Assembly (NCBI GenBank): GCA_029551185.1
Contig: JAKPFY010000116.1
Location: 1-33,651, forward strand
Direction: 5' to 3'
DNA length: 33,651 nucleotides
DNA from: Bacillota bacterium
GTDB lineage: Bacteria > Bacillota > SHA-98 > UBA4971
Shown here: in pieces, positions 3,498-32,002 of the stretch
Numbering within the stretch: position 1 is the first letter of the stretch
Layout: every line of letters starts with the position of its first letter
Program-made: the position numbers and the translations under genes
Notes under the pieces: model-generated
Databases searched by the model: none
What the model was told of the DNA's origin: nothing
Seen by the model: the letters and a program-made list of their open reading frames with translations, nothing else

Positions 3498-5144
3498 ATG
3501 ATTGAAGGAACCTATGAAGATGCTGTCCTTACGTATCGTAAGTTTGACGAAAAATGTGCAAGGACAGTATACAAATATGCATGCAGTCACGATTATGAAA
3601 CTTTATCCCAAGTACCATCTTTGGATTTGAAAGATGAGATGGAGGATGCTTATAAGCGGCTTCTATTAGAAGGTATGGAACTTCCCCAACCGGATCCAGT
3701 GTTTTCTTTGTTGAAAAGCCATTTCCTTGAGTTTCTAGAGGGCCACATATCTGGAGTTGCCAGCAGTTTTGAAAATCCCGACTGGTTCGTAGGCCGAGAA
3801 ACCTATCTATTGGATTTTAACTCAAGACAGGATTCAAGACCCGCCGATGTTAGATTACAAGTTCTCTCAGCCCGGCTATCTCAGTTAGATGATGTTTGGG
3901 AGGGGGTAAAAAGTCTTTTTCCTACAGTTCATCCCGACAAAATACAAGAGACAGCCCAGGCATGTAAGGTTCTACAAACTATTGCAGGCAACGTAGCAAG
4001 CAAAGTACCTTCGTATTACGGAGACCTTGATTTGGATGTTCAGAATGACCTCGCAGAGAGGCTCAGTGAACTTGTATCTAAAGCTAGAAGTTGGGAAGCA
4101 GAATCTTATAGAGCCGCCCAGGATAGGGCTACTTTGGGAGATCTATCTGAACTTACTGAAGCCAAAATAGATCCGGAAAGGTACGGAGAAATCCTTTCCA
4201 GAGAACTAGGTGTGCCCTTGGAGGAGCTGTTGGAATGGTACGAAGAGGAAATAGAATGTACCAGAAAGGAAATGATGGATGTAGCACGAAGTCTGAATCT
4301 TGGATCAGTGGAGTCGCTAGAAGATGTGTTTAAGATCCTGGATCAGTACGCTGGCCCCTGTGACACTGTGGAAGAAATGTTCTCCCGCATGGAAAAATAT
4401 GTGGAAATTGCCAAACGCGCTACCAAAGATGGCTTTGTAAACTTGCCAGAAGAATATTGCATAGTAAGTCCCACACCTGAACAGTGCCGAGATTCGTACC
4501 CATGGGGTGGCTACGGCGGAGGATGCTTCAGGCGAAGGCCGCTTGTGGGGGAAGTGTTTCTAAACGATAGTAATTACAAAGCAGTTACTGATGGATGGTT
4601 AAAGATGATGGCCATACACGAGTGTTATCCTGGTCATCACGTACAATTTGTAAGGACCACTTTGGATCCCCTGCCTGAAACAGTAAAAATAGGGTCGAGG
4701 TATATTCCCCTGCTTGAGGGAACAGCCCATAGGTCGGAAAAACTTATGGAGCACATATTTTCTGATCCGGTGTTTCCTTTATTTGTGCGCTTACGACGTC
4801 ACCATACAGCGGTGAGGATTAAGGCTGACTTATGGCTCCATTACTTTGGGAGATCGGTTGAGGAAGCAGTGGAATTGTACATGAAAGAGTTGGGGTTTGA
4901 CAGGGTATCCGCAAGAGGTCAGGTTCGGTACCAGGAACGTAATCCTGGCTACATGACTTGTTACTACTACGGAATGAAGAAGATTGAGGCGCTCCAGGAG
5001 AAATTCAAATACGGGGACAAAGAATTCACAGAGATTCTGTTTTCTGTAGGAAGGTTAAGCCTACCCAATTTTGAGAGGTTTTTAAAACTTAGCCAGGAAG
5101 ATAAAGTGCGGTTTCAAAAGGATTTTGCCAGCCTGGTAACATAA
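3498..5144 (+). CDS. DUF885 family protein, putative zinc metallopeptidase (copy 1)
   Basis: A 548-aa DUF885 protein. The signature H374-E-C-Y-P-G-H-H381 resembles the expanded HExxH-type zinc motif expected of this family. No signal peptide or membrane segment is seen, so it is probably cytoplasmic and acts on oligopeptides; the exact substrate is unknown. AAAGGAGG at 3483-3490 gives a strong ribosome binding site for ATG 3498. It is close behind the dehydrogenase genes and upstream of the epimerase, which suggests peptide supply to that pathway. A paralogue lies inverted at 7851-9521: over an 81-residue block spanning the zinc motif, 65 residues are identical by hand count, while the N-terminal halves are far more diverged. 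Confidence 0.85.
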   Translation: MIEGTYEDAVLTYRKFDEKCARTVYKYACSHDYETLSQVPSLDLKDEMEDAYKRLLLEGMELPQPDPVFSLLKSHFLEFLEGHISGVASSFENPDWFVGRETYLLDFNSRQDSRPADVRLQVLSARLSQLDDVWEGVKSLFPTVHPDKIQETAQACKVLQTIAGNVASKVPSYYGDLDLDVQNDLAERLSELVSKARSWEAESYRAAQDRATLGDLSELTEAKIDPERYGEILSRELGVPLEELLEWYEEEIECTRKEMMDVARSLNLGSVESLEDVFKILDQYAGPCDTVEEMFSRMEKYVEIAKRATKDGFVNLPEEYCIVSPTPEQCRDSYPWGGYGGGCFRRRPLVGEVFLNDSNYKAVTDGWLKMMAIHECYPGHHVQFVRTTLDPLPETVKIGSRYIPLLEGTAHRSEKLMEHIFSDPVFPLFVRLRRHHTAVRIKADLWLHYFGRSVEEAVELYMKELGFDRVSARGQVRYQERNPGYMTCYYYGMKKIEALQEKFKYGDKEFTEILFSVGRLSLPNFERFLKLSQEDKVRFQKDFASLVT

Positions 5145-7850: not shown

Positions 7851-9521
7851 CTATTCATATTTGAGCTTGCTCGGGAACTGGGTCAAGAGCCTTTCCTTAT
7901 CTTCGTCAGTTAGATTCAAAAATGCTTCGAAGTTGGCCAGGCTTATAAAGGGGACCGAAAACAGGTACTCTGTGAAAGTTTTCTTGTCGTAGCCATATTT
8001 TTGTTCTAGGTCTTCTAATTTTTTCATTCCATAATAATAGCAGGTGAAATAACCGATCCTATTTTGGGGCAATTGGGATATGGCTTGTCCTCTTGCAGTC
8101 TGATGGTCGAATCCTAGTTCGTCCATATATAGTTGGATGGCGTCTTCTAAGGGGCGCCCGAAGTATTGCATGTACAGATCGGCCTTAATCCTGACTGAAG
8201 TGTGGTGGCGTCTGTATGTTACTGCCAATGGGTAGAAGGGATCGTCATCATATATATACTCCATAAGGCGTTCACTTCTGTGGCACATCCCTTCTTCCAT
8301 AGGTACTCTTTTCGCCCCCATTTTCACGGTTTCAGGGAGCGGATCAAGGGTTGTGCGTACCCACTGAACATGGTGACCAGGATAGCATTCATGTACTGCG
8401 TTAATCTTAATCCACCCATCAGTTATAGCTTTGTAGTTAGTGTCATTTAAGAAGACTTCGCCGATGAGTGGACGACGTCTTGGACAGCCGCCGCCGTATC
8501 CTCCCCAGGGATAGGTTTCTCTGCACTGCTCGTAGACTGGTACTACTATACAGTCCTCTTCAGGCAGTCTGACCCAATCTCGACACGCTTTTTTGGCCCT
8601 TGCTAGATAGTTTCGTAGACGATCAAACATCTCCTCAGGCGAGTCTGCAGGACCGGCATACTTATTCATGATTTCAACTGCATCCAGAGGTCCAGTCACC
8701 TTGTGACCTGGAAGGTTTAGATTGGCAGCAGTTTCTACAAATTCTGCCCTCGTTTTTTCAACCTCATCTTCGTACCAACTGAGTAATTCATCCAGGCTAA
8801 CGCCTAATTCTTTGTCTAAGATCACCCTATATCTGTCCGGGCCTACCGTAACTAGATTACTGTCATCGTTTTTGGCCGGTTTCTGTTCGATGAGCCTTCC
8901 CAACTCGTTGGCCCATGCTTCTGCCTTTTCAGCGAAAAGTTCTAGCGTTCTCTCAACTGTCTGCAGGTTTTTTTCACTTAAACCCTCGTATTGCTGGCTA
9001 GCCTTAGATTTTTCTATAGCTACTACCCTGCCCAGCAATGAACAAGCAGATACTGCTTCTACCAATTGTGCTCGGGACGTATGGTGAAATATTTCTAAGA
9101 GCGCAGACCACAAAGGGTCTAAAAACGTTGCTCTTTTTACGAGGATCTTGGAGCGTTCTTCAGCGGATCTTGAATCCTTACCTCCCAGAAATGTTAGGAA
9201 GTTAGTAAGAGAAGAGATAAAGGTTGACGGGTAATCATATAAGCCGTCGAGATTGGATTGTTGTCCTTCAATGAAATCGGTAAAGTGGCTCTTTAGTATT
9301 TTGAAGACCGGATCAGGGGCTGGTAGTGCAGATATTTCCTGCTCGAGTTCACGCAAGACTTTCTCCTCATATTCTTTTGCTTGTTTAGTAGGGATGAAAA
9401 GGCTCATCTCGTAATCGCGGTTACTCCATAGTCTATCTTGCTGGAGCCCGCACCGATAATCAATATCCCTGTACCTTTCAACCAAATTATCTAATTCCGT
9501 GAAGGTGAACTCAGATTTCAA
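7851..9521 (-). CDS. DUF885 family protein, putative zinc metallopeptidase (copy 2)
   Basis: 556-aa paralogue of the protein at 3498-5144, in the opposite orientation. The zinc-type motif HECYPGHH starts at H377, and the C-terminal half is very close to copy 1 (YPWGGYGGGC, RRHHTSVRIKADL, TCYYYGMKK). The N-terminal 300 residues align only loosely, so the copies are not a recent duplication. The start is TTG at 9519-9521, with AAGGAG (plus-strand 9531-9536) 9 nt upstream. No signal peptide is seen. The gene sits between two related hairpin elements (7731-7784 and 9641-9697) and converges on the M24 gene. Predicted cytoplasmic peptidase; substrate unknown. Confidence 0.85.
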   Translation of the reverse strand: MKSEFTFTELDNLVERYRDIDYRCGLQQDRLWSNRDYEMSLFIPTKQAKEYEEKVLRELEQEISALPAPDPVFKILKSHFTDFIEGQQSNLDGLYDYPSTFISSLTNFLTFLGGKDSRSAEERSKILVKRATFLDPLWSALLEIFHHTSRAQLVEAVSACSLLGRVVAIEKSKASQQYEGLSEKNLQTVERTLELFAEKAEAWANELGRLIEQKPAKNDDSNLVTVGPDRYRVILDKELGVSLDELLSWYEDEVEKTRAEFVETAANLNLPGHKVTGPLDAVEIMNKYAGPADSPEEMFDRLRNYLARAKKACRDWVRLPEEDCIVVPVYEQCRETYPWGGYGGGCPRRRPLIGEVFLNDTNYKAITDGWIKINAVHECYPGHHVQWVRTTLDPLPETVKMGAKRVPMEEGMCHRSERLMEYIYDDDPFYPLAVTYRRHHTSVRIKADLYMQYFGRPLEDAIQLYMDELGFDHQTARGQAISQLPQNRIGYFTCYYYGMKKLEDLEQKYGYDKKTFTEYLFSVPFISLANFEAFLNLTDEDKERLLTQFPSKLKYE

Positions 9522-10719: not shown

Positions 10720-12942
10720 TTACTTCGTGTTTGAGTTTAAGGACCTTCTCTCCATGATTATGATGTTATACGGTTGTAAATCGATGATACGATCTACTTT
10801 TCTTCCAGTTATTAGGTCGGTATATTCGTTATCGTCTAGTTTTACTGTTTGAGTAGAGCAGGTGAAATTGGACAAAAACACAAAGTCTTTCTCACCGTCG
10901 GTCCTGAGTTGAGCGGTTACGCCATAAGGAAGATCTGCGGCGATAGCTCTTCTAAGCACGGTTCCTTGAGCGTATAAGCTATTGATTAAGGTTTCGTAGA
11001 AGTCGGTCAAAAAGTCATCGTTATTTCGAAATCCAATGTAATATGTATTGCCCTTTCCAAATTTGTTTACAGTTACAGCAGGCCTTCCTGCATAGAAATC
11101 TTCTTTATAAAAACCTAGAGGTTTGGCAGTTTCGCAATGAAAAAGGTCGCAAAATGTTCGGGCTTCATATTCCTTGCTTTTAAGTGGACCATTTTTCGCC
11201 AAGTCTTCTGAGAAATAGACGTAGTTTACATCGTGATCGTATAGGGCATCTATTTCTTCGGACCAGATTCCTGTAAGCTCCCGCAGAGGTCCAGGGAAGC
11301 CGCCGAGAAAACACAGGTCGTTTTCATCTGCTATCCCGCTCAAATAAGTGGTTACAAATGTGCCGCCTTGGCGCACAAAATCTTCAATCCTGCCAGCCAC
11401 CCCAGGTCTTACCATGTATAGCATGGGGGCTACCAGCACTTTGTAATTTGAAAAATCGCAATCCATGTCTATTACATCCGTAGGAATTCCTTTTTCCCAA
11501 AAGGTTCTGTAGTGGCTTTGACACGTATCAAAGTAATCTTTCTTATCTCTTCGAGGTCCTATGGCCCCGCTTATTGCCCAAGAGTTTTCCCAGTCATAGA
11601 TTACTGCAACCTCTGGCGATACCGAAGTACCGAGGATTGGCGTCAATTTGGAAAGCATCTCGCCTACCTGAGACACTTCTTTGAAAACCCTGGTGTTTTC
11701 GTGTCCACAGTGATCTACGACCGCTCCGTGGAATTTCTCATAACCTCCTCGACTCTTTCTCCACTGGAAGTATTGGACCGTTTCAGATCCGTGGGCAACA
11801 GCCTGAAGAGACGACAACACGTGCATACCGGGCCTTCGGAGTTTCCCCACAGGTTGCCAGTTTGTAGCGCTAGGGGAACTTTCCATCATAGCAAATGGCT
11901 GGCCGTGCTTTAAGGACCTGTTTATATCGTGGATGAACGCGCGTCTGCTTCCCTCAATAGGGTCAGGCCTCTCTCCATGCCAATACGGGTAGTTATCCCA
12001 AGACACAAAATCTACGTGTGGCGCAAATTTCCAATAGTTTATTCCATTTTCTATATCGACAAAGTCATCGAAATTGGTTGTGACAGGTATGTTAGGTGTG
12101 ATTTCTCTCAGTGGCTTTATCTCGTTCAAGAAAAAGTCTATGGTTTGGTCTGTGGTAAAACGCTTCCAGTCTAAGTTGAGTCCCATTATAGTGCGTTCGC
12201 CGTGAGGAGCAGGTGACTCAATTTGACTCCAGTCGGTATAGGTGTGACTCCAAAAAGGTGTCCACCAGGCTTGATTTAGTCGCTCAAGGTCTCCATCATA
12301 TTTCTTTTTAAGCCACTGGCGGAATTCTTCCTGACACAACTGGCAATGGCACTGCCCACCATATTCGTTGGAGACGTGCCATGCGATTAGGGCAGGATGG
12401 TCCTTGTATCTTTCTGCCAGTTTAGCGTTTATAATTTGCACCTTTTCCCTGTAAATGGGCGAAGTTAAGCAGTGATTATGTCTTCCTCCGTGGAGGTTTC
12501 TGACCCTGTTTTCTCTCACCCTAAGAACTTCGGGATATTTTTGGGATAACCAGGCCGGTCTAGCGGCGCTGGGAGTAGCAAGCATGACGTACACTCCGTT
12601 TTTGTACAGGTTATCCATGGTTCGATCCAGCCAGTAAAAATCGAACTTACCTTCTTCCTTTTCAATGGATGCCCATGCGAAAATACCCACGCTCATTACA
12701 TTGCATTTGGCAAGTTTCATGAGGCGATAATCCTCCTCTAGAATCTCGGGCATGTGTAACCATTGATCAGGATTGTAGTCGGCGCCATGCAAGAAAAACG
12801 GGGCTTTTTCACTGATTGGCGGATATTTTAGTGGATGAGTTTTTCTTTCTGAAGAGTCCTGACTTTCAGGTTCTATCAAATTTTCTCCGCTATAGGCAGA
12901 TTCTTTGCAGTTACTGCCCTGTAAATCTTTTTGACTATTCAT
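10720..12942 (-). CDS. GH42 family beta-galactosidase
   Basis: 740 aa. The TIM barrel carries acid/base E193 in WHVSNEYGG and nucleophile E354 in AMMESSPSATNW. The cysteine group around CHCQLC just after the acid/base Glu fits the structural zinc site of many GH42 enzymes. The trimerisation domain (DYFDTCQSHYRTFWEKGIPTDV region) and C-terminal beta domain follow. The first 45 residues are a polar, probably disordered extension without signal peptide. The frame is open to 13221, but that part is antisense to tRNA-Gly; ATG 12942 has AAAGGTGAG 9 nt upstream. The product should hydrolyse beta-galactosides inside the cell. No transporter or other sugar gene is adjacent; a LacI-type operator-like dyad lies upstream. 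Confidence 0.85.
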   Translation of the reverse strand: MNSQKDLQGSNCKESAYSGENLIEPESQDSSERKTHPLKYPPISEKAPFFLHGADYNPDQWLHMPEILEEDYRLMKLAKCNVMSVGIFAWASIEKEEGKFDFYWLDRTMDNLYKNGVYVMLATPSAARPAWLSQKYPEVLRVRENRVRNLHGGRHNHCLTSPIYREKVQIINAKLAERYKDHPALIAWHVSNEYGGQCHCQLCQEEFRQWLKKKYDGDLERLNQAWWTPFWSHTYTDWSQIESPAPHGERTIMGLNLDWKRFTTDQTIDFFLNEIKPLREITPNIPVTTNFDDFVDIENGINYWKFAPHVDFVSWDNYPYWHGERPDPIEGSRRAFIHDINRSLKHGQPFAMMESSPSATNWQPVGKLRRPGMHVLSSLQAVAHGSETVQYFQWRKSRGGYEKFHGAVVDHCGHENTRVFKEVSQVGEMLSKLTPILGTSVSPEVAVIYDWENSWAISGAIGPRRDKKDYFDTCQSHYRTFWEKGIPTDVIDMDCDFSNYKVLVAPMLYMVRPGVAGRIEDFVRQGGTFVTTYLSGIADENDLCFLGGFPGPLRELTGIWSEEIDALYDHDVNYVYFSEDLAKNGPLKSKEYEARTFCDLFHCETAKPLGFYKEDFYAGRPAVTVNKFGKGNTYYIGFRNNDDFLTDFYETLINSLYAQGTVLRRAIAADLPYGVTAQLRTDGEKDFVFLSNFTCSTQTVKLDDNEYTDLITGRKVDRIIDLQPYNIIIMERRSLNSNTK

Positions 12943-13016
12943 TTTCAGTTTCTCACCTTTCAATATGTTCAGTTTACCTAAGTTGAAATATACGCTAGTT
13001 AGAGCGTTAAATCCTT

Positions 13017-13037
13017 TGTGCAAACGCTTTGCGCACA
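13017..13037. promoter_or_regulatory. LacI/CcpA-type operator-like dyad upstream of the GH42 gene
   Basis: tgtgcaaacgctttgcgcaca. The core CAAA-CGC-TTTG and the outer TGTGC/GCACA arms are both palindromic, with centres one base apart. The CAAACG core resembles LacI/GalR-family operators. It lies about 75 bp upstream of the GH42 start on the minus strand and just before the tRNA promoter on the plus strand. It matches the CcpA cre consensus only in its core. Binding is inferred. Confidence 0.4.
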
Positions 13038-13040
13038 GGC

Positions 13041-13070
13041 TTGACCCCTGAACTCCTTTTTTAGTACAAT
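13041..13070 (+). promoter_or_regulatory. Sigma-A promoter of the tRNA cluster
   Basis: TTGACC (13041-13046), 18-bp spacer, TACAAT (13065-13070), with tRNA-Gly starting 50 bp downstream. A second TATAAT at 13093-13098 lacks a good -35 box. Confidence 0.6.
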
Positions 13071-13119
13071 AACTCGTGCTATTATGTGTTATTATAATAG
13101 AGCCGAGGACGACTTTCTG

Positions 13120-13193
<74 letters not shown>

Positions 13194-13194
13194 T

Positions 13195-13270
13195 GCGCCT
13201 GTAGCTCAGGGGATAGAGCACCTGCCTTCTAAGCAGGGAGTCGCAGGTTCGATTCCTGCCAGGCGCGCCA
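13195..13270 (+). tRNA. tRNA-Arg (TCT)
   Basis: Acceptor GCGCCTG/CAGGCGC, anticodon loop CTTCTAA between CCTGC and GCAGG, encoded CCA. It starts one base after tRNA-Gly. Confidence 0.95.
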
Positions 13271-13290
13271 GATTGAAACTAAAGTGTTGT

Positions 13291-13368
13291 GGTGGATGTA
13301 GCTCAGGCGGTTAGAGCGCCAGGTTGTGGCCCTGGAGGTCGGGGGTTCAAATCCCCTCATTCACCCCA
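13291..13368 (+). tRNA. tRNA-His (GTG)
   Basis: Anticodon loop TTGTGGC between CCAGG and CCTGG. The extra 5' G at 13291 pairs with C73 at 13365, the histidine identity pair. CCA is encoded. Confidence 0.95.
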
Positions 13369-13391
13369 ATTTTTGACCTGTTACAAACTGT

Positions 13392-13468
13392 GCGCCCGTA
13401 GCTCAATTGGACAGAGCCGCAGACTTCGGATCTGAAGGTTACAGGTTCGAGTCCTGTCGGGCGCGCCA
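13392..13468 (+). tRNA. tRNA-Arg (TCG)
   Basis: Acceptor GCGCCCG/CGGGCGC, anticodon loop CTTCGGA, encoded CCA. The outermost anticodon-stem pair is a G-A mismatch (GCAGA with TCTGA); the rest of the cloverleaf is regular. Confidence 0.9.
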
Positions 13469-13470
13469 GA

Positions 13471-13545
13471 TGGGGCGTGGCCAAGTGGTAAGGCACCAGC
13501 CTTTGGAGCTGACATTCGCAGGTTCGAATCCTGCCGCCCCAGCCA
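13471..13545 (+). tRNA. tRNA-Gln (TTG)
   Basis: Acceptor TGGGGCG/CGCCCCA, anticodon loop CTTTGGA between CCAGC and GCTGA (outer C-A mismatch), encoded CCA. It begins two bases after the preceding tRNA. Confidence 0.92.
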
Positions 13546-13549
13546 TGTG

Positions 13550-13624
13550 GGGCCATTAGCTCAGGGGTAGAGCACCCGCCTTTTAAGCGGGGAGTCGATG
13601 GTTCGAATCCATCATGGCCCACCA
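13550..13624 (+). tRNA. tRNA-Lys (TTT)
   Basis: Acceptor GGGCCAT/ATGGCCC, anticodon loop CTTTTAA between CCCGC and GCGGG, encoded CCA. Confidence 0.95.
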
Positions 13625-13652
13625 TTTCTCTCTTGGCTTTTGTCTTCGAGAC

Positions 13653-13739
13653 GCGAGGGTGTCGGAACCGGCAGACGAGCTGGACTTAGGATCCAGTGCC
13701 TTAAGTGGCGTAGGGGTTCAAATCCCCTCCCTCGCACCA
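13653..13739 (+). tRNA. tRNA-Leu (TAG)
   Basis: 87-nt class II tRNA with acceptor GCGAGGG/CCCTCGC, anticodon loop CTTAGGA between CTGGA and TCCAG, a long variable arm and encoded CCA. Last gene of the cluster. Confidence 0.95.
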
Positions 13740-30103: not shown

Positions 30104-31540
30104 ATGAGCTTGAACAGGACTCCCAGGGCTAACCGGGTTCACATAGGCATTTTCGGAAGACGTAACGCAGGCAAATCCAGCCTGATAAATGCAATCACAG
30201 GCCAGGACATAGCTTTGGTTTCCGATACCCCTGGCACTACCACTGACCCTGTGTACAAGTCTATGGAGCTGCCCGGGGCGGGACCGGTGGTGTTCATCGA
30301 TACACCCGGGTTAGACGACGAGGGAAATCTGGGACAGGCAAGGGTCCGGAGGGCTGCGAGGATACTGGAGCGCACCGATGTTGCCGTGCTGGTAGTCGAT
30401 CCTGTTGCCGGACTTGGGGAGACTGAGGAGGCACTGCTTGAGGCGGTGATGGCTAAAGCGATACCACTAGTTACGGTGGTTGCCAAGCAAGACACTTGGA
30501 CAGATGCATCTTGTCTGGAAGATGTGCGGGCCAAGGTCCAAGCGATCCTCAGCCAGAAGACCCAAGCCGGCCCTCAAGCAGCCATCATCGGGCGAGCCGA
30601 TCAAGCAGCCCAAGTAGCCAAATTGAAAGCCCAGCCACATGTCCAGTCAGAAGCCCAGCCGGAAGCCCAGTCACCAGCCCCACCCCTGGCGGGGCCTGAA
30701 ATCGGGGAGGCAGGTTCAAAGGCCAGGATTAAAGCCAAGAGTACTTCCCGGAAGGCAGCATCTGAACCAATGGTCTTGGGAGTGAGTGCCGTCACTGGGG
30801 AAGGAGTCAGGGAACTTGTCCTTAGGCTGACCCAGCTCATCAATCACCGATTCGCCGATGCAGAACCTGCCATTGTAGGAGATCTGCTTGAGCCAGGGGA
30901 CACTGTATTCTTGGTTGTCCCTTTGGACCTGCAGGCTCCCAAAGGCAGGTTAATCCTGCCCCAGGTTCAAGTGATAAGGGACCTCTTGGATCACGATTGC
31001 ACAGCCGTTATGGTGAAAACCGGATATCTCGCAGATGCTTTGGAAAACTCCAAACAGCCGCCTGCCTTGGTAATCACGGATTCGCAGGTGTTTGGCGAAG
31101 TGGATGCCGTATTGCCCCAGAATATCCCGCTTACGTCGTTCTCGATTCTGTTTGCCAGATATAAGGGGGACCTGGTGGAACTTGCCAGAGGTGCCCGGGC
31201 GCTAGCCGGGCTTAAGCCTTACGATAAGGTGCTCATTGCTGAAGCATGCACCCATCATCCCATCGCCGATGACATCGGTACGGTCAAAATTCCAAGATGG
31301 CTTGAGGAAAAAGTCGGGGGGCCCCTGGAGTTTTCTTGGCAAAGGGGTGCTGATTACCGCGAAGATCTCAGTCAATACAAGGTCATAATCCATTGCGGAG
31401 GGTGTATGCTCAACAGGCGGGCCATGTGGTCCAGAATAGAAGCTGCCAAAGCTGCAGGGGTTCCGATCACCAACTACGGGATGACCATCGCATATACTAG
31501 GGGAATATTAGAGAGAGCCTTGGAACCGTTTGACCTGTAG
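30104..31540 (+). CDS. hydF: [FeFe]-hydrogenase H-cluster maturation GTPase HydF
   Basis: 478 aa (usual about 400). GTPase domain: G1 GRRNAGKS at 18-25, then DTPGTTTDP and DTPGLDDEG. The C-terminal 4Fe-4S scaffold motif is intact: C382-x-H384 and H430-C431-x2-C434. Two departures: the G4 motif is AKQD where NKxD is expected, and residues about 152-222 between G4 and G5 are an Ala/Gln/Pro/Lys-rich low-complexity insertion. HydF carries the 2Fe precursor and delivers it to the hydrogenase. AGGAGG lies 8 nt before ATG 30104. It is the last gene of the operon; no normal terminator follows, only the dyad array from 31606. Confidence 0.94.
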   Translation: MSLNRTPRANRVHIGIFGRRNAGKSSLINAITGQDIALVSDTPGTTTDPVYKSMELPGAGPVVFIDTPGLDDEGNLGQARVRRAARILERTDVAVLVVDPVAGLGETEEALLEAVMAKAIPLVTVVAKQDTWTDASCLEDVRAKVQAILSQKTQAGPQAAIIGRADQAAQVAKLKAQPHVQSEAQPEAQSPAPPLAGPEIGEAGSKARIKAKSTSRKAASEPMVLGVSAVTGEGVRELVLRLTQLINHRFADAEPAIVGDLLEPGDTVFLVVPLDLQAPKGRLILPQVQVIRDLLDHDCTAVMVKTGYLADALENSKQPPALVITDSQVFGEVDAVLPQNIPLTSFSILFARYKGDLVELARGARALAGLKPYDKVLIAEACTHHPIADDIGTVKIPRWLEEKVGGPLEFSWQRGADYREDLSQYKVIIHCGGCMLNRRAMWSRIEAAKAAGVPITNYGMTIAYTRGILERALEPFDL

Positions 31541-31873
31541 GACTGCAGGAATGGTACATGTAGTCTGCCAATGTACCTCTTGTAAAGATGGAAAGCTGAG
31601 GAGACGGTGCACGGAGTGCACCATTTTGACCCTTGGGGGAGCGAAAAACCCGGAAATTGGTGCACGCAGTGCACTATTTTAGCCCTGAAGGCACCGGGAA
31701 CCCAGAAAATCGGTGCACGTGATGCACCATTTAAGCGGAAAATATCCTGAGAGTCCGGGAAAATGGTGCACCAGGTGCACCATTTCCAGCCAAATCCCTG
31801 AAGAAAGAGAAAGTAATGGTCCACAGAGTACACCATATCCACTAAAACGCTGGTACACGTTGAGGAGATCCGA
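31541..31873. other. Non-coding region between hydF and tRNA-Val
   Basis: Occupied mostly by the 53-bp dyad array. Open frames across it are not credible: the period is not a multiple of three, and no frame has a ribosome binding site. Confidence 0.7.
31606..31834. repeat. Five-unit 53-bp tandem array of 17-bp dyads
   Basis: Palindromes of the form GGTGCACnnnGTGCACC start at 31606, 31659, 31712, 31765 and 31818, every interval exactly 53 bp. Units 1 and 4 have perfect 7-bp arms; 2, 3 and 5 have small changes. Each is followed by ATTT (ATAT in the last). The 36-bp intervals are related to each other (units 1 and 2 match at 23 of 36) but diverged, so this is a decayed tandem repeat in which the dyad is best kept. 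A weak extra unit (GGTACAT) occurs in phase at 31553. Confidence 0.9.
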
Positions 31874-31927: not shown

Positions 31928-32002
31928 GGGGACTTAGCTCAGCGGTAGAGCGTTCGGTTCACATCCGAAAGGTCACAGGTTCAAACCCTGTAGTCCCCAC
32001 CA
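31928..32002 (+). tRNA. tRNA-Val (CAC)
   Basis: 75 nt with acceptor GGGGACT/AGTCCCC, anticodon loop TTCACAT between TTCGG and CCGAA, T-loop TTCAAAC, encoded CCA. A single gene with its own promoter. Confidence 0.95.

Follow-up and report, generated by a model that had tools for sequence, protein, structure and literature searches.

Palindrome arrays in helical phase, dispersed between genes, with a member downstream of hydF in an uncultured Bacillota bacterium

The 33,651-nucleotide contig JAKPFY010000116.1 (hereafter the window, i.e., the whole stretch of DNA analyzed) carries, between the hydF gene and a tRNA-Val gene, an array of five palindromic dyads of the GGTGCAC-N3-GTGCACC type. It belongs to a family of palindrome arrays in helical phase that are dispersed between the genes of one small group of uncultured thermophiles; a search of the literature revealed no description of these arrays. 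We consider it probable that the arrays serve as scaffolds of helically phased binding sites for a putative dimeric, sequence-specific DNA-binding protein, which would organize the chromosome or its topology.

The array downstream of hydF and the dispersal of its family

As an earlier note on this DNA had stated, the starts of the five dyads are separated by steps of 53, 53, 53 and 53 bp (Table 1), and the preceding gene proved to be hydF by its Pfam domains. Sites with at most three mismatches to the dyad number eight in the window, as compared with 1.37 (largest value 7) in dinucleotide shuffles of the whole 33.6 kb, and five of the eight stand in exact register, all inside 230 bp. Among the five units, the dyads have a mean pairwise identity of 0.89, the AAAT/ATTT flanks reach 0.71, and the inner spacers fall to 0.34; the 23 identical positions out of 36, counted previously between the spacers of units 1 and 2, were found again. 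A degenerate unit had also been claimed in phase at 31553: its left half-site, GGTACAT, does lie in register, while the partner ATGTACC is 8 bp too distant, leaving an 11-bp loop.

The contig was deposited as part of a metagenome-assembled genome (MAG; G000, where it is contig C44), which has a second ClpX (on C195) only 70% identical to that of the window. The window ClpX has an exact counterpart (100% identity) in Candidatus Fermentithermobacillaceae bacterium DTU015 (G041), whose locus L160 displays the same order of hydF, array and tRNA, with an N-gap within the array. Based on both facts, the contig was most likely mis-binned and belongs to the species of DTU015.

Searches of this and related genomes for the dyad revealed many intergenic arrays in DTU015 and three sister species (G042, G046 and G047), the largest array read comprising 20 units. 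When 84,980 species genomes were scanned for pairs of dyads 38-68 bp apart, the lineage yielded matches in DTU015 and in Bacillota MAG AS08sgBPME_372 (G042), in either case with a spacing of exactly 53 bp. Genome-wide pattern searches with up to two mismatches detected 75 dyads in each of these two genomes (11 and 7, respectively, for a reversed control pattern); with up to one mismatch, 46 were counted in G041, 39 in G042, 98 in G047 and 13 in G046, whereas each of 13 further species of the order had 0-1. The array-bearing species are also the closest ones by ClpX identity to the window (100, 94, 93 and 91%), the next being G048 with 89%. Many arrays abut the end of a contig or are interrupted by assembly gaps (L151, L155, L157, L161, L166, L195 and others; the N-run of L160), so that short-read assemblies undercount them.

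The arrays are intergenic, apart from one that overlaps a doubtful open reading frame (ORF; genes were called with a codon-usage model). Their flanks face gene 3' ends in 38 cases and 5' ends in 20, and within 100 bp the preference is 19 versus 3. The neighbors are ordinary, unrelated genes, encoding ATP-binding cassette (ABC) transporters, Ddl ligase, superoxide dismutase, aldehyde dehydrogenase and others. Orthologous array loci with differing unit numbers and flanks of about 80% identity occur across species (L150/L163/L190, L148/L183, L158/L194/L198 and L159/L169). The position between hydF and tRNA-Val could be taken for that of an operator array controlling one of these genes; this is highly unlikely, as similar arrays follow many unrelated genes, mostly at their 3' ends, and sister species possess hydF and the tRNA without an array. 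A special tie to hydF was thus not sustained, because the family is dispersed and at hydF the array is absent or replaced in the sister species.

Spacing register, helical phasing and the level of constraint

When sites were picked in the retrieved loci by a position weight matrix (PWM) without regard to spacing, 326 sites and 282 neighbor distances were obtained. Exactly 53 bp separate the neighbors in 256 of the 282 cases, and 11 more distances fall within 2 bp of this value. The remaining 15 are 42 (three cases), 43 (five), 48 (two), 63 (one), 64 (two), 78 (one) and 95 bp (one), and 12 of these 15 large deviations are whole-turn multiples of 10.6 bp, with a phase offset of 9 degrees. At two loci of G046 (L199:2735-3079 and L200:2765-3121) steps of 42/43 bp and about 53 bp alternate, forming a 95/96-bp double unit. 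The pooled consensus of the PWM site set is AAAATGGTGCACCAGGTGCACCATTTT, and the extended palindrome is 25-27 bp long.

The AT content of the spacers is periodic as well: it is best described by a period of 10.6 bp (i.e., 53/5), and in 45 of 45 segments the oscillation is locked to the dyad centre at zero phase, although this count overstates the independence of the segments, since local duplications have left the spacers of an array partly akin to one another. The mean cosine component of the weak/strong (W/S) phasing in the spacers is 2.50, as compared with 0.00 (sd 0.16) for the shuffle null. Many phased columns use both A and T, or both C and G, a pattern more in line with selection for bendability than with descent from a single sequence. 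Considering that the spacers have mostly lost sequence similarity and yet kept their length, the spacing register is probably under selection. The earlier proposals of selection on both spacing and dyads, and of a cooperative DNA-binding or nucleoid-type site with all units on one face of the helix, are thus supported by the fixed, turn-quantized steps and the phased spacers.

The main rival explanation, to which we assign a distinctly lower probability, regards the arrays as a selfish or neutral interspersed tandem repeat (resembling Staphylococcus aureus repeats, STAR, or minisatellites), spread by recombination or slippage without a host function. It is consistent with the differing unit numbers at orthologous loci, with the local higher-order duplications within arrays L165, L166, L183 and L196, with the varying presence of arrays among sister species, and with the similar behavior of STAR elements, which are also without known function (PMC3532100). 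However, neutral decay would be expected to strike dyads and spacers equally and to introduce indels, whereas here the spacer sequence is near-random while its length, the dyads and the 10.6-bp W/S phase are preserved; besides, species with no more than about 80% identity in the flanks have many loci in common.

The dyads can fold into hairpins of 7 to 12 bp, and the arrays follow genes, with ATTTT after some stems; therefore, serial hairpins acting downstream of genes as terminators, mRNA stabilizers or processed RNAs were considered, the terminator version having been suggested in the earlier note. Several lines of evidence make an RNA-level element very unlikely. Compensatory double changes in the dyads are not in excess (20 seen versus 28 expected for the pair 7/11, and 2 versus 4.6 for the pair 3/15); single-sided changes are independent overall, or paired changes are even under-represented. 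G·U and A·C pairs are similarly frequent (127 and 109, respectively) on the strand presumed to be transcribed, i.e., there is no strand-specific G·U bias. The orientation of the arrays, set by an off-centre TTTTC tract, does not track that of the genes, and Rfam gave no match for the array. As for the stem followed by ATTTT, it is present in units 1 and 2 of the hydF site only, and an AAAAT-like sequence mirrors it on the 5' side of the stem, so that the flanks are symmetric. Finally, turn-quantized spacing and phased spacers would be meaningless in RNA. In view of the absent covariation and strand bias, the orientation independent of genes and the negative Rfam result, the constraint is placed at the DNA level.

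The same format with other dyads, and known repeat systems

In the gap between hydF and tRNA-Val of G042 (L173, reverse strand), the GGTGCAC dyad is replaced by an array of TGGTCAG-N3-CTGACCA, also of the 7-N3-7 format. Its steps of 64, 32, 42, 32, 32, 43, 32, 32 and 41 bp correspond to six, three and four helical turns, and several units are degenerate. G048, which is devoid of GGTGCAC arrays, possesses 53-bp arrays of GGCTC-N7-GAGCC dyads (Table 1). Since both species carry other dyads in a turn-based register, the format and the register are kept, and it is the motif recognized by the presumed protein that differs between sister species. Beyond the order, Cohnella and Paenibacillus carry the GGTGCAC dyad every 51 bp, with a phase period of 10.2 bp (i.e., 51/5) in 8 of 8 segments; these arrays are also dispersed and reach up to 17 units (Cohnella thailandensis L054, L060, L074, L082 and L087; Paenibacillus lycopersici L065 and L077). 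Matches in Thiobacillus, Nitrosomonas and Undibacterium were inverted pairs or of the GTAGGGTGCAC type and were judged unrelated and similar to repetitive extragenic palindromic (REP) elements. Separately, repeats of 31-33 bp (about three helical turns), some of them palindromic, were observed in G049 (L285:10476-10880 and L286:4720-4980) and G052 (L279:10380-10770).

The architecture comes near to that of sopC, the SopB/ParB-bound site of the F plasmid, which consists of twelve 43-bp repeats with ten 16-bp inverted repeats (PMC6238139). Both have tandem units of whole helical turns (43 bp versus 53 and sometimes 42/43 bp here, as in the steps of G046), a palindrome of 16-17 bp in every unit and about a dozen copies. 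Unlike sopC, the arrays occupy many loci per chromosome, have diverged spacers and are accompanied neither by adjacent par genes nor by an extra ParB gene: no parAB operon adjoins them, the neighbors in the window being hydF, a tRNA and two radical-SAM genes, and those at other loci being other metabolic genes. A centromere of the ParABS or nucleoid-occlusion type, with a ParB/Noc/SopB-like protein loading on the arrays as dispersed partition sites, is consequently an improbable explanation, considering also that a common set of one or two ParB_N genes is found in all species of the order, with or without arrays. The Spo0J parS site is TGTTTCACGTGAAACA, and the dyad is dissimilar to it. Of the partition or nucleoid site suggested earlier, a dedicated chromosomal partition system is unsupported by gene content, though it keeps a small probability; a DNA-binding or nucleoid-type site is supported.

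BIME-2, a bacterial interspersed mosaic element (BIME), binds DNA gyrase in Escherichia coli. With REP/BIME elements the arrays have in common that they are intergenic, mostly 3' of genes, palindromic (25-27 bp here, 20-40 bp in that class), clustered and present in many copies. They differ in their fixed 53-bp spacing, in dyads kept by sequence and not by pairing, and in the pooled consensus, which lacks the GTAG/CGTC tags as defined for REP (PMC3733652). REP sequences driven by REP-associated tyrosine transposases (RAYT) were also considered and rejected: PF01797 is absent in G041, G042, G046 and G047, and it is present in 2 of 13 array-lacking genomes of the order. The 10.6-bp W/S phase of the spacers resembles the GC phasing of about 10.75 bp in the flanking arms of strong gyrase sites, the E. 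coli gyrase binding motif being located downstream of transcription units (PMC6379681).

STAR elements likewise form interspersed intergenic arrays of variable copy number with locus-specific spacers, their short motif being accompanied by some 40 bp of sequence that recurs. Their motif, however, is a GC-rich 14-bp direct repeat with the consensus T(G/A/T)TGTTG(G/T)GGCCC(C/A) (PMC3532100), which the dyad sequence does not match, and many of the array loci described here are common to several species. Regularly spaced palindromic repeats are also typical of clustered regularly interspaced short palindromic repeats (CRISPR), yet a degenerate CRISPR array can practically be dismissed: the repeats are non-identical, the spacers are alike within arrays rather than unique, the period is 53 bp, many loci are dispersed in each genome, and no cas gene was found among the flanking genes examined. 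By contrast, the CRISPR-like array L234:45-7900 of G050 (contig C1), a genome of the same order, has invariant repeats at spacings varying from 65 to 70 bp; it has a repeat core, CCTACCTATGAGGGATG, and this spacing in common with the likewise CRISPR-like array L217:2755-3020 of G048. The family therefore fits the broad kind of interspersed intergenic palindromic arrays but fails the defining features of REP, STAR and CRISPR. An origin from plasmids or phages was also considered and rejected: blastn searches with the array in collections of both gave no match, the two-dyad matches in IMG/VR not having been inspected singly.

Table 1. Coordinates of the array downstream of hydF and its neighbors in the window, and of the two GGCTC arrays of G048
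Feature	Position	Strand	Evidence or remark
hydF	30104..31540	+	Pfam HydF_tetramer 1.8e-45, HydF_dimer 2.2e-39; context, array begins 13 bp past 3' end
Degenerate unit GGTACAT-N11-ATGTACC	31553..31577	.	Sequence; left half-site alone in register
Dyad 1 GGTGCACGGAGTGCACC	31606..31622	.	0 mismatches
Spacer 1, 36 bp	31623..31658	.	W/S phasing pooled with other arrays
Dyad 2 GGTGCACGCAGTGCACT	31659..31675	.	1 mismatch
Spacer 2, 36 bp	31676..31711	.	
Dyad 3 GGTGCACGTGATGCACC	31712..31728	.	1 mismatch
Spacer 3, 36 bp	31729..31764	.	
Dyad 4 GGTGCACCAGGTGCACC	31765..31781	.	0 mismatches; arms 12 bp when AAAT/ATTT flanks are counted
Spacer 4, 36 bp	31782..31817	.	
Dyad 5 GGTCCACAGAGTACACC	31818..31834	.	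2 mismatches
tRNA-Val(CAC)	31928..32002	+	ARAGORN, Rfam tRNA; next gene downstream; its 5' 60 bp conserved in sister species
GGCTC-N7-GAGCC array, G048	L219:1-330		Six units
GGCTC-N7-GAGCC array, G048	L260:3589-3976		Eight units

The flanks of the array in the window comprise two radical-SAM genes in addition to hydF and the tRNA. Elsewhere in the window, a cluster of seven tRNAs is located at 13120-13739, and an ORF of 833 amino acids (10720-13221, minus strand) overlaps the first two of them, its listed start being probably too early. Similar proteins are encoded on opposite strands at 3498-5144 and 7851-9521, the first being a DUF885 protein according to Pfam; between them lie the gene for a proline racemase and one more ORF.

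A possible architectural role of the arrays

In the reading we favor, each 17-bp dyad within AAAT-GGTGCAY-N3-RTGCACC-ATTT is a predicted site for one dimer of a sequence-specific DNA-binding protein. The five-turn period would set all sites on one side of the helix, and the AT-rich minor grooves of the spacer, occurring once per turn in phase with the dyad centre, would let the DNA between the sites bend or wrap in one plane. With the sites on one face and the bending planar, an ordered, presumably cooperative nucleoprotein array could assemble 3' of genes and would act on chromosome organization or topology, as BIME/gyrase sites and sopC partition complexes do, and not as a gene-specific operator, an RNA or a terminator.

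Several observations weigh against this interpretation, along with the partial relatedness of spacers mentioned above. No binding protein was identified: the ParB_N content is equal in array-bearing and array-lacking relatives, and no array-specific ParB_N gene was found. The hydF site is free of an array in G046 and G047, where only short gaps remain, so the copy at hydF is dispensable in relatives. Also, the two GGCTC arrays of G048 match the 10.6-bp period less exactly, their best periods being near 11 and 10.2 bp. A candidate binder, a 509-aa HTH_3 protein encoded beside array L168 and again at its ortholog L185, was rejected, as nothing links it to the array family.

More tentatively, the arrays may belong to a chromatin-like system, in which a lineage-specific DNA-binding protein builds phased, wrapped arrays at gene 3' ends chromosome-wide; the dyad (GGTGCAC, GGCTC or TGGTCAG) would switch while the register remains fixed, array and protein would co-evolve, and the same architecture would operate in Paenibacillaceae.

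Interspersed palindromic repeats are common in bacteria, and few of them reveal directly what is selected. Here, a whole-turn register, phased bendability and a palindrome are kept, the rest, even the palindrome sequence between sister species, being free to vary. The family thus turns the idea of architectural DNA arrays in bacteria (scaffolds for topology, loops or partition) into a specific proposition that can be tested, and Cohnella and Paenibacillus, which are cultivable and carry this dyad, offer a route to the protein.
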